Positions 1,443 through 4,718 of a stretch of DNA of 64,000 nt are shown here, in pieces; within the stretch, counting starts at the first letter, position 1; every line of letters starts with the position of its first letter. Location of the stretch: contig JAQSCW010000043.1 of assembly GCA_029945625.1 (NCBI GenBank), positions 1 through 64,000 on the forward strand. Direction: 5' to 3'. This DNA is from a bacterium (GTDB lineage: Bacteria > Bacteroidota > Bacteroidia > B-17B0 > Aurantibacillaceae). Below the pieces are notes generated by a model. That model had not been told where the DNA came from. It saw only the letters and a program-made list of their open reading frames with translations, and searched no databases. Both the position numbers and the translations under genes were made by a program.

Positions 1443-1518
1443 AGTCAGTGGACAAGGCTTTATGGGGCGAAAGATAAAGAAATTATTGATTTTGTTTGTG
1501 AAATAAAGTTTAGAAAGC

Positions 1519-1526
1519 TATTTTTG
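1519..1526 (+). promoter_or_regulatory. Bacteroidota -7 box before a hairpin leader
   Basis: TATTTTTG matches the Bacteroidota -7 consensus TAnnTTTG. Transcription would begin near 1531, the first base of a 10-bp perfect hairpin. It could drive a small RNA, the HTH gene at 1696, or both. Confidence 0.45.
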
Positions 1527-1528
1527 TA

Positions 1529-1598
1529 TAGTTATATTCTTTTTGGGTAGAATATAACTCAATGCCTCGCTAGGAAACTAGTGGGGCATTCTCTTTTC
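1529..1598 (+). ncRNA. Candidate small RNA or leader made of two consecutive hairpins
   Basis: Two strong hairpins lie back to back. The first pairs 1531-1540 with 1549-1558 (10 perfect pairs, 8-base loop). The second pairs 1561-1573 with 1578-1590 (13 pairs including two G-U) around a GAAA tetraloop, followed by CTCTTTTC. With the -7 box at 1519, this predicts a structured transcript of about 65 nt ending at a weak terminator. It may be a free small RNA or an attenuating leader for the HTH gene about 100 bases downstream. No known RNA family is recognised. Confidence 0.4.
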
Positions 1599-1695
1599 AA
1601 TTAATATAGTTGTGCAGTAGTGTGTAGTAGTGGGTGTAAGTGGCTTTCCGAATTTTTTAATAGAGCTAACTTTATTTTAACAAAAATAATGTACT

Positions 1696-2043
1696 ATGGA
1701 AGGTATCACATTAATAGAGGGGCAAACTTTGAAACATTGGGAACTAAGATTGCTAAACATTGAGCAAAATCAATTAGCAATTCTAAAAAAGATTGAGCAA
1801 CTAAATCCCTTAACACCTCATAACAGTGTACCCGACTTTATTTCAGTTGAAAATGCTGCTAAAAAATACCATGTGTCAAAGCAAACAATTTATAATAAAA
1901 TAAAACTCTATGTTATAAATAAGGGTAAGGCAATTGATAGATTACAAATAGGAGGTTCAAACTTGATTAATGAAATTGAGTTGTTAGAAGCATGGAGATT
2001 AAAACCTGATGTTCCCTTAATTTTTAGAAAGAAAAACAAATAG
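1696..2043 (+). CDS. Helix-turn-helix DNA-binding protein, excisionase-like
   Basis: This 115-residue protein has a charged N-terminal helix of about 45 residues and then a winged-helix/HTH segment, roughly residues 48-105, with the core ENAAKKYHVSKQTIYNKI. That is the HTH_17/MerR-like fold of excisionases and of the small helix-turn-helix proteins common on Bacteroidota mobile elements. The ATG at 1696 is the only good start, and no Shine-Dalgarno is seen, as usual in this phylum. It lies between hairpins with the same CTAGTGGGG core and about 190 bases from the 3' end of tRNA-Ser, a common integration site, which fits a mobile-element remnant. No integrase is present in the window. Confidence 0.7.
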   Translation: MEGITLIEGQTLKHWELRLLNIEQNQLAILKKIEQLNPLTPHNSVPDFISVENAAKKYHVSKQTIYNKIKLYVINKGKAIDRLQIGGSNLINEIELLEAWRLKPDVPLIFRKKNK

Positions 2044-2057
2044 TTTTTTTTGAATGC

Positions 2058-2094
2058 ACCCCCGCTAGTTTGTTCTAGTGGGGGTTCTTTTTTT
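2058..2094 (+). terminator. Rho-independent terminator of the HTH gene
   Basis: An 11-bp stem pairs 2058-2068 with 2075-2085 around a 6-base loop, with one G-U pair, and is followed by TTCTTTTTTT. It starts 15 bases after the HTH stop codon. Confidence 0.8.
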
Positions 2095-2183
2095 GCTATA
2101 TCTAAATTGTGATGTAGAAGTTATTAACAAGAAAAACCTATTCTGAAAATATTATAGTATTTATCCCCCCAGCTATCCCCCCA

Positions 2184-2214
2184 ACAAAACAAAACCCGCA
2201 ACTGGTGCGGGTTT
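2184..2214 (-). terminator. Terminator of tRNA-Ser
   Basis: On the minus strand a perfect 9-bp stem (2206-2214 with 2192-2200, 5-base loop) is followed by a T-rich run, 15 bases beyond the 3' end of tRNA-Ser. Confidence 0.75.
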
Positions 2215-2228
2215 CGTCATTGTATCTG

Positions 2229-2313
2229 CGGAGAAAGAGGGATTCGAACCCCCGGAAGTTTGACCTTCAACAGTTTTCAAGACTGCCGCAATCGACCACT
2301 CTGCCATTTCTCC
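2229..2313 (-). tRNA. tRNA-Ser (anticodon UGA)
   Basis: The minus strand folds as a class II tRNA. The acceptor strand GGAGAAA pairs with TTTCTCC, the anticodon loop reads CTTGAAA (anticodon TGA), there is a long variable arm as in serine tRNAs, and the T-arm contains GGTTCGAATCC. The discriminator is G and a complete CCA end is not encoded. It has its own -7 box at 2318-2325 and a terminator at 2184-2214. Its 5' half and promoter are repeated twice more upstream, at 2671-2737 and 3083-3149. Confidence 0.96.
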
Positions 2314-2317
2314 GGGG

Positions 2318-2325
2318 CAAAAGTA
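2318..2325 (-). promoter_or_regulatory. -7 box of intact tRNA-Ser
   Basis: TACTTTTG on the minus strand matches TAnnTTTG and ends 4 bases before the tRNA 5' end. Identical boxes stand 412 and 824 bases further out, in front of the partial tRNA copies. Confidence 0.7.
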
Positions 2326-2348
2326 CTAATTTTTTGTTCAGTTCTAAT

Positions 2349-2600
2349 TTATTTTTTTGGGAAATTTAATTTCAACCATTCTCTCCCTTTTCCAGACTTC
2401 AAAAACAGTTCTCGTTTTCGAGCAGAAGTATAATCAGGAAAAGATTCTGAATGTATCAGTACCCAAGGACATCCTGATTTGGTCGATTTTACAGAAGCTG
2501 AATTGTGCTTTTTTAGTCGGGTCCCGGCATCATTCTCTCTGGAAGATCCTGTATAATATTTATTAGTGCTTTGACTAAATAAAACGTAAATACATGCCAT
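2349..2600 (-). CDS. Small GIY-YIG nuclease, copy 1
   Basis: An 83-residue protein consisting only of a GIY-YIG nuclease domain (UvrC N-terminal/YhbQ type). It reads IYVLF...KYYTG near the N-terminus, then RLKKHN, and ends with SARKRELFLKSGKGREWLK, where the glutamate should bind the catalytic metal and the C-terminal part is the usual conserved helix. The ATG at 2600 is chosen because it opens directly on the domain. An upstream TTG would add 44 residues translated from the palindromes and the tRNA copy, which is unlikely to be real protein. The gene lies downstream of a tRNA-type promoter and a partial tRNA-Ser, and upstream of the intact tRNA-Ser. It probably nicks or cuts DNA; the target is unknown. 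Confidence 0.8.
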   Translation of the reverse strand: MACIYVLFSQSTNKYYTGSSRENDAGTRLKKHNSASVKSTKSGCPWVLIHSESFPDYTSARKRELFLKSGKGREWLKLNFPKK

Positions 2601-2614
2601 ATAGGATAGTTTTT

Positions 2615-2670
2615 CCGCCGTAGGCGGACCCGCCTGATGTGCCGCCACAGGCGGCTTGGTGTGAGGCGGG
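2615..2670. repeat. GC-rich palindromic block, copy 1 (REP-like)
   Basis: A 56-bp GC-rich block with nested hairpins: CCGCC-GTA-GGCGG at 2615-2627, GCCGCC-ACA-GGCGGC at 2641-2655, and an outer stem pairing 2629-2635 with 2664-2670. It ends exactly where the tRNA-Ser 5'-half copy begins. A third motif of the same pattern, CTCC-AAA-GGCGG, is inside the tRNA copy. The CCGCC-NNN-GGCGG form recalls REP-type repeats that are moved by a protein encoded elsewhere. Confidence 0.75.
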
Positions 2671-2725
2671 CAAGACTGCCGCAATCGACCACTCCCTCCA
2701 AAGGCGGGCAAGCTGCCATTTCTCC
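2671..2725 (-). pseudogene. tRNA-Ser 5'-half copy with a 19-nt insertion, copy 1
   Basis: Bases 2671-2694 and 2714-2725 match the intact tRNA-Ser from its 5' end to the anticodon loop (sense strand ends CTTG). Nineteen bases at 2695-2713, including a CTCC-AAA-GGCGG palindrome, interrupt the D-arm. The similarity stops in the anticodon loop, where the GC-rich block begins. It cannot make a functional tRNA but keeps the -7 box at 2730-2737. Confidence 0.85.
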
Positions 2726-2729
2726 GGGG

Positions 2730-2737
2730 CAAAAGTA
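2730..2737 (-). promoter_or_regulatory. Copied tRNA-Ser -7 box before the GIY-YIG gene
   Basis: TACTTTTG, identical to the box at 2318-2325 and 412 bases upstream of it. It would transcribe the tRNA-half, the palindromes and GIY-YIG copy 1. Confidence 0.6.
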
Positions 2738-2760
2738 CTAATTTTTTGTTCAGTTCTAAT

Positions 2761-3012
2761 TTATTTTTTTGGGAAATTTAATTTCAACCATTCTCTCCCT
2801 TTTCCAGACTTCAAAAACAGTTCTCGTTTTCGAGCAGAAGTATAATCAGGAAAAGATTCTGAATGTATCAGTACCCAAGGACATCCTGATTTGGTCGATT
2901 TTACAGAAGCTGAATTGTGCTTTTTTAGTCGGGTCCCGGCATCATTCTCTCTGGAAGATCCTGTATAATATTTATTAGTGCTTTGACTAAATAAAACGTA
3001 AATACATGCCAT
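2761..3012 (-). CDS. Small GIY-YIG nuclease, copy 2
   Basis: The 83-residue product is identical to that of the gene at 2349-2600; both lie at the same place in the 412-bp repeat. It is a single-domain GIY-YIG nuclease with KYYTG, RLKKHN and the C-terminal RELFLKSGKGREWLK segment. The ATG at 3012 is used for the same reason as in copy 1. On the minus strand the order is promoter, tRNA-half, palindromes, this gene, then the second promoter and tRNA-half. An intact frame in both copies suggests the protein is still under selection or that the copying is very recent. Confidence 0.8.
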   Translation of the reverse strand: MACIYVLFSQSTNKYYTGSSRENDAGTRLKKHNSASVKSTKSGCPWVLIHSESFPDYTSARKRELFLKSGKGREWLKLNFPKK

Positions 3013-3026
3013 ATAGGATAGTTTTT

Positions 3027-3082
3027 CCGCCGTAGGCGGACCCGCCTGATGTGCCGCCACAGGCGGCTTGGTGTGAGGCGGG
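3027..3082. repeat. GC-rich palindromic block, copy 2 (REP-like)
   Basis: Same sequence as 2615-2670, displaced by 412 bases, with the same three palindromes, and again ending exactly at the start of a tRNA-Ser 5'-half copy. Confidence 0.75.
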
Positions 3083-3137
3083 CAAGACTGCCGCAATCGA
3101 CCACTCCCTCCAAAGGCGGGCAAGCTGCCATTTCTCC
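3083..3137 (-). pseudogene. tRNA-Ser 5'-half copy with a 19-nt insertion, copy 2
   Basis: Same structure as 2671-2725, including the 19-base insertion in the D-arm and the breakpoint in the anticodon loop. Beyond 3138 the flank diverges from the other two copies but keeps CAAAAGTA, the complement of the -7 box, so this may be the original chromosomal promoter side of the tRNA locus. Confidence 0.8.
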
Positions 3138-3141
3138 GCGG

Positions 3142-3149
3142 CAAAAGTA
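3142..3149 (-). promoter_or_regulatory. Outermost tRNA-Ser-type -7 box
   Basis: TACTTTTG on the minus strand, 824 bases from the box of the intact tRNA-Ser and in a diverged context. It would read into the tRNA-half and GIY-YIG copy 2. Confidence 0.55.
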
Positions 3150-3206
3150 GTAAATTTTCGTAAACTCAAGCTAAAAAATTAACTATTTTTCTATAACTTT
3201 ATAAAA

Positions 3207-4718
3207 TTGCACGTTGACAATATTGAACATATTCGAAAACACCTTTTTTGCTTGCTTGTAGGCTCATTTCTATGCGTACAAATGGTTGCCCAGCCCTCTG
3301 TTTATTATAATTCCACGTCTTTTAATACTCCGCAGGGACTCCCCTTTATTGAAACACACATTACCATATTGGGTCAAACCCTTTTTGCGAAGTCAGAAAA
3401 CGAGAAATTCAAGAACTCAGTGAATATTATTTGTAAGATCTACAGTGACTCTGTGCTCGTAAAAGCCAATAAATACAATTTGATTGGTCCCGAATTTCAG
3501 CGAGGAAGCACCGCTCCTTCGTTTATCGACAATCAACGCTATTCCCTGCCCAATGGCAACTACTCTGTCGAACTTACCATTTCCGACAACTACAGCCCTT
3601 CTTTAAACAGCATGACCGTGTACGACAGGGTCTCGATCAGTTACAGCGATAAATTGCTTCAAAGTTCAGGAGTGCAAGCCCTTGAGAGCTTCAGCGTGTC
3701 AACTGCGGTGGGTCCACTTACAAAAAGCGGATACGATCTGGTGCCCTACACAACAAATTATTATCCGGAATCTGTCACTAAACTTTCTTTTTATCTCGAA
3801 TCATACAATGCCGCCACTGTGCTGGGAGAGAAAGCCCCTTTTGTTTATTCCTATTACCTCGAAATGGCTGAAAATGGAAAGAAGCTCAGCGATTATGGCG
3901 CGTTCCGAAAACAAGTATCAGCCGAGGTTAACCCTCTTCTTGGAAGGTTTGATATCTCCAAACTTGGCACCGGAGATTACAACCTGGTGGTAGAATTGAT
4001 CGACGCCAAAAATGTGATGCAGTTGCGTACAAAATACTTTTTTCAGCGTTTGAACAGAATGGTGGATGTTACAGCGCTGCAGGGCCTCAGTGAAATTCAA
4101 TTAAAGGCGGCCTATTTCGGACATTGTAACAATGCTGATACCCTTAAAATGTTTGTGGAATGCCTCTGGCCAATAGCCGACGGCGTTGACAAGGAACGCA
4201 TCATCAATCAATCGGTGAAAAAAGATCCTGAACTCATGAAAAATTTTGTGGTTGATTTTTGGCAACGGCGCTCTGCTGATACCGCCGACCCCCTAAAAAT
4301 GTGGGCAAGTTATTATCAAAGTGTGCAGGAAGTAATGGTGCTGTTTAAATGTGGGAAACAGAAAGGGTATTATACTGACAGGGGTCGCGTTTACCTGCAG
4401 TATGGAAAACCGAGTCAGCGTGCCGAGCGACCGAACGAACAAAACACCTTTCCCTACGAGATCTGGCAATATTACCGCACCACCGACGCTACCAACGGGC
4501 AGTTCTTCAGCAATCGAAAATTTGTGTTCGTGAACAAAATGCTCGGCGACGACTGCTACAAATTAATCCACAGCGATATGCGCGGTGAAATCAATAATCC
4601 CCGCTGGCAATTCGAATTAACCCGGAGAAACAACGATGGTCTGTCGAACCCCGACAATACGACACCGGCCGGCACCGAAAATAACCAGTTCAACGATCTT
4701 TTTAGTAATCCGCGATAA
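3207..4718 (+). CDS. GWxTD domain-containing secreted protein
   Basis: A 503-residue exported protein. A hydrophobic segment ending VQMVAQ looks like a signal peptide. The C-terminal part, about residues 300-475, is the GWxTD region with KGYYTDRGRVYLQYGKP, the hallmark block of this Bacteroidota family, followed by YEIWQYY. The middle is rich in beta structure. The start is a TTG at 3207, since no ATG precedes the signal peptide; confidence in the exact start is moderate. The molecular role of the family is not established. The stop is 5 bases before the following glycosyltransferase, which suggests cotranscription. Confidence 0.82.
   Translation: MHVDNIEHIRKHLFCLLVGSFLCVQMVAQPSVYYNSTSFNTPQGLPFIETHITILGQTLFAKSENEKFKNSVNIICKIYSDSVLVKANKYNLIGPEFQRGSTAPSFIDNQRYSLPNGNYSVELTISDNYSPSLNSMTVYDRVSISYSDKLLQSSGVQALESFSVSTAVGPLTKSGYDLVPYTTNYYPESVTKLSFYLESYNAATVLGEKAPFVYSYYLEMAENGKKLSDYGAFRKQVSAEVNPLLGRFDISKLGTGDYNLVVELIDAKNVMQLRTKYFFQRLNRMVDVTALQGLSEIQLKAAYFGHCNNADTLKMFVECLWPIADGVDKERIINQSVKKDPELMKNFVVDFWQRRSADTADPLKMWASYYQSVQEVMVLFKCGKQKGYYTDRGRVYLQYGKPSQRAERPNEQNTFPYEIWQYYRTTDATNGQFFSNRKFVFVNKMLGDDCYKLIHSDMRGEINNPRWQFELTRRNNDGLSNPDNTTPAGTENNQFNDLFSNPR

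Follow-up and report, generated by a model that had tools for sequence, protein, structure and literature searches.

The tRNA-Ser(UGA) gene near the start of the 64,000-nucleotide (nt) stretch analysed here (the window; contig JAQSCW010000043.1 of an Aurantibacillaceae genome, phylum Bacteroidota) is broken by a small insertion. On the minus strand the host gene is interrupted behind nt 36, where there follow a GC-rich hairpin block, an open reading frame (ORF) for a GIY-YIG nuclease and a further promoter plus tRNA 5' half, and this arrangement is doubled in tandem. Sequence comparison shows a common build on many tRNA isotypes across Bacteroidota, in which tRNA pieces, a hairpin at a loop characteristic of the nuclease clade and a small same-strand ORF are accompanied by one intact tRNA. 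The explanation that we favour, and consider likely, is that these are chromosomal mobile elements that live in tRNA genes and home in the manner of phage SegB, from which they differ in ending in hairpins and in bringing a whole tRNA, or half of one, as a replacement.

From position 3161 downward the site reads promoter, tRNA nt 1-13, GC-rich insert, tRNA up to nt 36, hairpin block, ORF and second promoter (Table 1), and the two 412-bp units match letter for letter. An earlier note made from the DNA letters (the original prediction) had described three tRNA-Ser-type promoters 412 nt apart. The motif TACTTTTG, which we take to be a fit to the Bacteroidota -7 motif TAnnTTTG, was indeed found by motif scan at that spacing ahead of every tRNA start (2318-2325, 2730-2737, 3142-3149), as part of a 37-nt repeat of promoter and tRNA start (2301, 2713 and 3125; spacing 412 + 412) of which two copies are identical and the third (3125-3161) is 89% identical. 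The inner promoter also resembles the tRNA-Ser promoters of orthologous loci in the genus (e.g. L133). ARAGORN places an intact tRNA-Ser(TGA) behind the innermost promoter, as predicted, and the two predicted 5' halves ending at the anticodon are borne out by a repeat of tRNA nt 13-36 at 2278, 2671 and 3083 (100% identity), with both halves breaking off after nt 36, within the anticodon (nt 35-37 per ARAGORN), where the GC-rich block begins. The D-arm insertion noted as common to both copies is likewise present, as 18-19 nt of GC-rich sequence after nt 13.

The encoded protein (P0001) is a stand-alone GIY-YIG domain (PF01541, E 2.6e-12), in keeping with the original assignment, whose motif residues Y, Y-G, R and E stand unchanged in all of the 16 proteins aligned. 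No NCBIfam match was obtained for P0001; the L045 protein gave one sub-cut-off match, to a group I intron endonuclease. Beyond both units, the window's own genome returned a 24-nt tRNA match only, and tRNA-fragment matches were found in 0/96 control tiles of the window at the threshold applied to relatives, so that a chance origin of the tRNA pieces is unlikely. We read the 412-bp repeat as a single inserted unit that was duplicated in tandem, in preference to two independent insertions.

Table 1. Features of the tRNA-Ser site (2228-3161) and its neighbour in the window
Feature	Position	Strand	Basis
Intact tRNA-Ser(UGA), downstream of the element	2228..2313	-	ARAGORN; Rfam RF00005, 57.8 bits
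Inner promoter copy, between ORF and intact tRNA	2314..2348	-	TACTTTTG at 2318-2325; direct repeat and motif scan
412-bp unit, inner copy	2314..2725	-	100% identity to 2726-3137
GIY-YIG ORF, inner copy, 83 amino acids	2349..2600	-	PF01541 at 2385-2600, 46.5 bits
GC-rich hairpin block at the anticodon-loop break, inner copy	2614..2670	-	Sequence; 57 nt
tRNA-Ser 5' part, inner: nt 1-13, 18-19-nt insert, up to nt 36	2671..2725	-	Repeat and alignment
412-bp unit, outer copy, starting with the host tRNA 5' part	2726..3137	-	Identity to inner unit
GIY-YIG ORF, outer copy, 83 amino acids (P0001 has one extra leading residue)	2761..3012	-	PF01541
GC-rich hairpin block, outer copy	3026..3082	-	Sequence; RNA fold
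Host tRNA-Ser 5' part, broken, outer	3083..3137	-	Position of the intact tRNA in 28/29 other loci
Native tRNA-Ser promoter, outer	3138..3161	-	TACTTTTG at 3142-3149; comparison with orthologous promoters
Conserved divergent neighbour gene, anchor of the orthologous locus	3207..4718	+	Matched in 36/37 genus genomes, the window's included

The state of the site before insertion can be read from its orthologues. The anchor gene was matched in 35 other genomes of the genus, and 29 of those loci were examined, several of them ending early at contig ends. An intact tRNA-Ser(tga) lies 110-157 nt from the match start in 28 of the 29, and 27 of these 28 have no GIY-YIG match in the stretch examined. 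The original prediction had named a plain local duplication at empty sites as the sign of a bystander nuclease; the empty sites seen here did not refute it. The other intact locus (L146) also has a tRNA-Ser(gga) element further out, and no tRNA was seen at the orthologous locus L141. In the window the outermost broken copy occupies the usual tRNA-Ser position while the intact tRNA has moved to -954. Because an intact tRNA sits at this position in 28 of the 29 other loci, the outer promoter and 5' half are those of the host, and the insertion either brought along or created the inner pair.

Linkage to tRNA genes extends well beyond this locus. A set of 112 distinct GIY-YIG ORFs was collected from the window's genome and its relatives with the window nuclease and the Pfam profile; it includes the window's two ORFs and some pieces at contig ends, and leaves out matches with internal stops and no 45-amino-acid open piece (L038, L100). 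An intact same-strand tRNA lies within 260 nt of 62 of these ORFs (47 upstream, 15 downstream), 29 have tRNA fragments only, and in none is an opposite-strand tRNA the only one. Where the PF01541 matches were listed completely (seven genomes, 48 matches), 25 of the 34 stand-alone ORFs are tRNA-linked (23 computed, two in L041 by eye), as against 0/14 of the long-frame GIY proteins serving as control, for which tRNAs were counted up to 260 nt from the domain. A more distant tRNA (291, 391 or 839 nt away) is present at three of these control loci; the nearer two, L258 and L261, come from two genomes, and there the neighbour is a tRNA-Leu(tag) and the GIY-YIG domain belongs to a long-frame protein the size of UvrC.

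In a 395-genome Bacteroidota sample the window nuclease found 29 non-window loci, of which 25 have an intact same-strand tRNA within 260 nt, 2 fragments only and 2 neither; the outcome that would have spoken for a gene spread without tRNA 5' halves through many genomes was thus not observed. A profile built on the nucleases found at tRNA-Val (Val-type) matches 175 of the 395 genomes at E <= 1e-10, not all of which need be elements, and 30 phylum loci of this profile comprise 22 with intact tRNAs, 5 with fragments and 3 with none, all three at contig ends. Among the best 80 of at least 473 confirmed named loci, a tRNA or fragment lies within ~500 nt of the ORF in 78 and a same-strand ARAGORN tRNA within 260 nt upstream in 55, the genera including Algoriphagus, Echinicola, Pedobacter, Mucilaginibacter, Chryseobacterium and Flavobacterium.

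The elements occur in two mirror forms. Form A consists of an intact tRNA, a terminator-like hairpin, the ORF and a broken 3' part; form B, that of the window, consists of a broken 5' part, a hairpin, the ORF and an intact tRNA. Insertion at the anticodon loop with regeneration of promoter and 5' half, as originally proposed, is therefore supported for one of two forms. Form B is found in 12 of the 29 window-nuclease loci (with a tRNA 5' piece upstream of the ORF in 10 of the 12), but an intact tRNA upstream is the commoner arrangement (127 of 158 labelled loci, in a sample enriched in tRNA-Val types). Nor are promoter and 5' half all that can be carried, since the fullest form bears a whole replacement tRNA between two hairpins.

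This fullest form is best seen in an empty and an occupied tRNA-Val site of two related genomes. Genomes G018 (empty) and G020 (occupied) are 93.9% identical over 1250 nt of upstream flank and 85.4% identical over 1070 nt of downstream flank after a 354-nt offset. In G020 the native promoter and tRNA nt 1-28 run into a hairpin, a spacer and a complete tRNA-Val, followed by a hairpin resembling a terminator, the nuclease ORF, the remnant of a D-arm, a second hairpin, nt 46-76 and native downstream sequence, so that 470 nt from hairpin to hairpin replace a 17-nt anticodon arm. This comparison shows that in tRNA-Val the anticodon arm is exchanged for an insert that runs from hairpin to hairpin and includes a complete spare tRNA. 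Inserts measured in the same way span 459 nt in G025, 549 nt in G006, 461 or 548 nt in G014 and 462 nt in G001 (1635 nt with its array), and G034 has a hairpin-bearing 5' remnant ahead of an intact tRNA-Val, with no nuclease match found in that genome. Occupancy at homologous sites is patchy at both the Ser locus and the Val locus, the latter being occupied and empty among near relatives.

Nuclease clades, as resolved in trees of the nuclease domain, follow tRNA isotype. These trees come from a short alignment of 81 columns, with many forks left unresolved; fragments labelled Cys(aca) or Glu(ttc), the names that ARAGORN gives to some copies inside tRNA-Val elements, were recoded as Val(tac) because they are hairpin-bearing tRNA-Val copies. 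In a 101-domain tree with 'none' as a label, isotype changes 35 times against 73.3 in shuffles (0/200 as low). Over 82 labelled rows, 27 changes suffice for isotype (18 states), where shuffled labels average 60.0 (minimum 55), and host genome (35 states) takes 65 against 70.9 in shuffles (minimum 65); after reduction to a single row for each genome and isotype (72 rows), isotype still takes 27 against 53.7 (minimum 50). A tree of 236 domains, a sample enriched in Val-type nucleases because the searches used a Val-type profile, and in which a few odd tRNA calls were ignored, gives 49 changes for the 158 domains labelled by intact tRNA against 95.7 (minimum 87, 100 shuffles).

The positions of the breaks are likewise alike within clades across genomes, although a clear break was not obtained for every element: Val 28|46, also 23|46 and 30|44; Ala 35|42 or 32|42; Met 35|41 in a first clade and, in a second, either 36|42 or 36|47; Leu(gag) 13|17, also 13|23; Arg(cct) 17|17; and Arg(tct) 22|23. 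These regularities bear on whether recombination at tRNA repeats might simply have duplicated promoter and halves around a GIY-YIG gene that merely uses a tRNA promoter. The tRNA promoter motifs ahead of the broken copies in the window and a plain tandem duplication would suit such an origin, which we nevertheless regard as extremely improbable given the same-strand linkage in several samples, the shared break sites and the clean empty and occupied pair at tRNA-Val; that nuclease clades track isotype in particular makes a bystander role for the nuclease unlikely.

One clade (L080-L083 and L095, with L084 and L116 less surely placed) has no tRNA link and looks like an ordinary cellular protein. 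The nearest solved sequences are the UPF0213 small GIY-YIG proteins (1zg2, 1ywl) and SLX1; UPF0213 proteins are not known to be tRNA-borne elements, and the ordinary clade coexists with the tRNA-linked elements in the same genomes.

Where Val elements lack the anticodon arm they have a hairpin with the consensus TCCCGAY..RTCGGGA and compensating changes, and its stems are paired in 320 of 336 cells, as against a shuffled mean of 280.9 and maximum of 294 (500 shuffles; 48 hairpins, a few chance matches retained). The 18-nt pattern TCCCGAC..GTCGGGA was found in tRNA-Val or tRNA-Ala elements only, in G001 (11) and G006 (2). Among the best 80 of the at least 473 named loci, Val-type nucleases at tRNA-Arg(tct) and tRNA-Pro(tgg) keep this hairpin while the duplicated part comes from the other tRNA. 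Such observations raise the alternative of structure-directed palindrome mobility, in which the GIY-YIG protein would act on hairpins, in cruciform or single-strand form, rather than on intact tRNA sequence and hairpin-bounded segments would be moved into tRNA loops, much as in REP/RAYT or DNA-hairpin systems. It would account for the hairpin boundaries of the Val element, the hairpin that stays with its nuclease at foreign tRNAs, the many breaks within tRNA loops and, more easily than homing, the unaltered intact tRNAs; SLX1, the closest solved relative after UPF0213, is moreover a structure-specific nuclease. The isotype specificity of the clades points instead to recognition of tRNA sequence, TCCCGATAGCTATCGGGA palindromes are scattered through G030 and G001 and for the most part lie apart from the elements inspected, and the hairpin block of the window (outer copy, identical to the inner), despite folding into nested stems, is no more stable than shuffled sequences (z -0.43). 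Taken together, we judge palindrome mobility unlikely, while granting it a real chance. The TCCCGATAGCTATCGGGA palindromes also occur in the tRNA breaks of Met and Leu(gag) elements.

Under the homing explanation, the nuclease would cut its cognate tRNA gene at a loop, and the break would be repaired by homologous recombination on a copy that has the element, which would thereby be copied in, the tRNA halves serving as homology arms. A cut in the arm followed by repair through the flanking halves would give the G020 structure exactly. The carried tRNA or half would keep the cell viable, some self-protection of the carrier is likewise presumed, and tandem arrays may arise through later recombination between halves. 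Disrupted copies have a loop or arm lost or altered, while the intact tRNA of the carrier is unaltered.

Several points weigh against this account. Firstly, cutting is a prediction from sequence. Secondly, the Ser(tga) anticodon arm is identical in the 29 orthologues listed, carrier included, and five carriers share one tRNA-Val sequence (100% identity) with seven genomes without a detected Val-type nuclease; because the carriers' intact tRNAs are unaltered, classic homing-site immunity is not visible, and a search for a recoded, immune tRNA in carriers found none for Ser or Val. Thirdly, no tRNA link was detected for 21 of the 112 ORFs, several of which do not belong to the ordinary clade that lacks a tRNA link; two supported clades, though linked to tRNAs, show no preference for an isotype, and one of them lies downstream of tRNA 3' ends (L046, L047, L057) and, in L049, of a transfer-messenger RNA (tmRNA); and the arrangement A or B is bound to clade only loosely (19 changes against 28.5 shuffled). 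Finally, the searches turned up nothing close to the window nuclease (at best 45% identity among 60 relatives and 55% in the phylum sample), so that movement of the window's own element is not directly seen, and vehicles for spread did not emerge: the P0001, L022 and L045 proteins gave no tblastn match at 1e-5 against 50,697 phage records, and there was no plasmid record match at 1e-5 and no viral contig.

The closest precedent is SegB of phages T4 and T6, described as a free-standing GIY-YIG endonuclease that cuts within tRNA genes and is required for tandem amplification of tRNA plus segB (PMC13096335); the present elements also resemble other intronless homing genes of T4 (PMC2988022). A GIY-YIG nuclease gene beside tRNA genes is common to SegB and the present elements, and the latter share with free-standing homing endonucleases an ORF of a nuclease family with its motif residues, outside any intron (Rfam, window 1500-4000). 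Phage segB genes are enriched near tRNAs, with no isotype preference reported, and inefficient or tolerated cutting of the donor has been proposed for SegB (PMC13096335). The elements described here differ in residing on bacterial chromosomes across Bacteroidota with a minimal ORF, in the specialisation of their clades by isotype, and in their hairpin-swapped tRNA copies and carried replacement tRNA or half. Since no phage record matched the three proteins at 1e-5, what can be claimed of kinship to phage Seg proteins goes no further than the shared GIY-YIG domain.

Other known systems resemble the elements in part. Like a group I intron with a homing endonuclease, the window element targets the anticodon region of a tRNA gene; the Rfam scan of window 1500-4000 found tRNA alone above the gathering score, with no group I intron or other RNA element, and with no ribozyme, and with the tRNA unspliced and present again intact, such an intron was rejected. 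REP/RAYT and double-hairpin elements have GC-rich hairpins in common with the present elements, in which such hairpins are inserted in tRNA copies, but here a GIY-YIG gene and a tRNA lie between the hairpins; next to the ORF the unit has no room for a Y1 HUH transposase, which speaks against a RAYT within it (the genome was not scanned for RAYTs). Integrase-type islands insert into tRNA genes and keep an intact copy. Retention of an intact tRNA is thus a shared trait, but the breaks here fall in D, anticodon or T loops and the window form repeats the 5' half; an island of this kind was set aside because GIY-YIG is the only Pfam match in the unit's longest ORF, the wider window not having been scanned for integrases.

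Nearer to such islands is a sub-family at tRNA 3' ends. In G030 a ~628-bp element, 95.7% identical between its copies, follows two different tRNAs (Met and Arg(acg); L046 and L047), which speaks for mobility, and is flanked by 9-nt direct repeats that match the acceptor end of the tRNA concerned; the right-hand repeat of L046 leads into the start of another element copy and that of L047 into what looks like the native terminator. The mechanism of this sub-family may differ from that of the loop-breaking forms. At L049 (G043:C31) a GIY-YIG ORF begins at ~2504, after a tmRNA gene (2010-2376), and the tRNA-like end of tmRNA may also be a site for these ORFs.

Tandem arrays are frequent, e.g. five copies at 315-nt spacing in G350. 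In G001 (L071 ~1491-2456; C1 ~2150408-2151373) about ten tRNA-Val 5' halves lie upstream of an intact tRNA-Val, each with its anticodon arm replaced by a hairpin and mostly spaced by 89 nt. Arrays of this kind would suit a module useful to the host, in which broken tRNAs and nuclease would benefit the cell, e.g. by acting as decoys or by altering dosage in the face of phage defences or toxins that cut tRNAs, and amplification of tRNA-Tyr and segB in phage T6, which overcomes Septu, offers a precedent (PMC13096335). What is multiplied in the window and in Val elements, though, is the broken tRNA and not the intact one, empty loci exist, and PADLOC returned no match for P0001 or the L022 protein, so we hold a host-useful module to be very unlikely.

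We place the elements with free-standing homing endonucleases, with a substantial chance that they are a class of their own. The fuller statement is that they form a distinct class of very small, hairpin-bounded tRNA-replacement elements, in each of which a GIY-YIG domain adapted to one isotype would destroy that tRNA gene by putting a hairpin in place of a loop or arm, with a complete carried tRNA or tRNA half as repayment; a host dependent on its element for an essential tRNA would find that element hard to lose. This is put forward tentatively, at somewhat less than even confidence. A literature search whose coverage excluded subscription papers and preprints, and which saw its sources in part, returned only the phage analogue and no report of tRNA-gene-linked GIY-YIG genes on Bacteroidota chromosomes; neither Bacteroid- nor COG2827 occurs in a GIY-YIG survey, the passages of which that were consulted describe no elements linked to tRNAs (PMC1564403). 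If the homing explanation is right, tRNA-linked GIY-YIG homing would extend from phages to bacterial chromosomes across a phylum, with nuclease families specialised on single tRNA isotypes and a set of minimal, naturally retargeted nucleases. It would also explain broken-tRNA arrays that a tRNA finder can call as odd tRNAs, and allows a direct test of how a nuclease can target an essential gene of which its carrier keeps an unaltered copy.

Two further features of the window's genome may be mentioned. A second element of the family lies at a tRNA-Arg(cct) at a contig end (G000:C50 ~100-430; L079). On the 3' side of the tRNA-Ser in the window, a small ORF (1696-2043, plus strand; no Pfam, NCBIfam or PADLOC match) contains a stretch that looks by eye like a helix-turn-helix and is possibly a remnant of another tRNA-targeted element.

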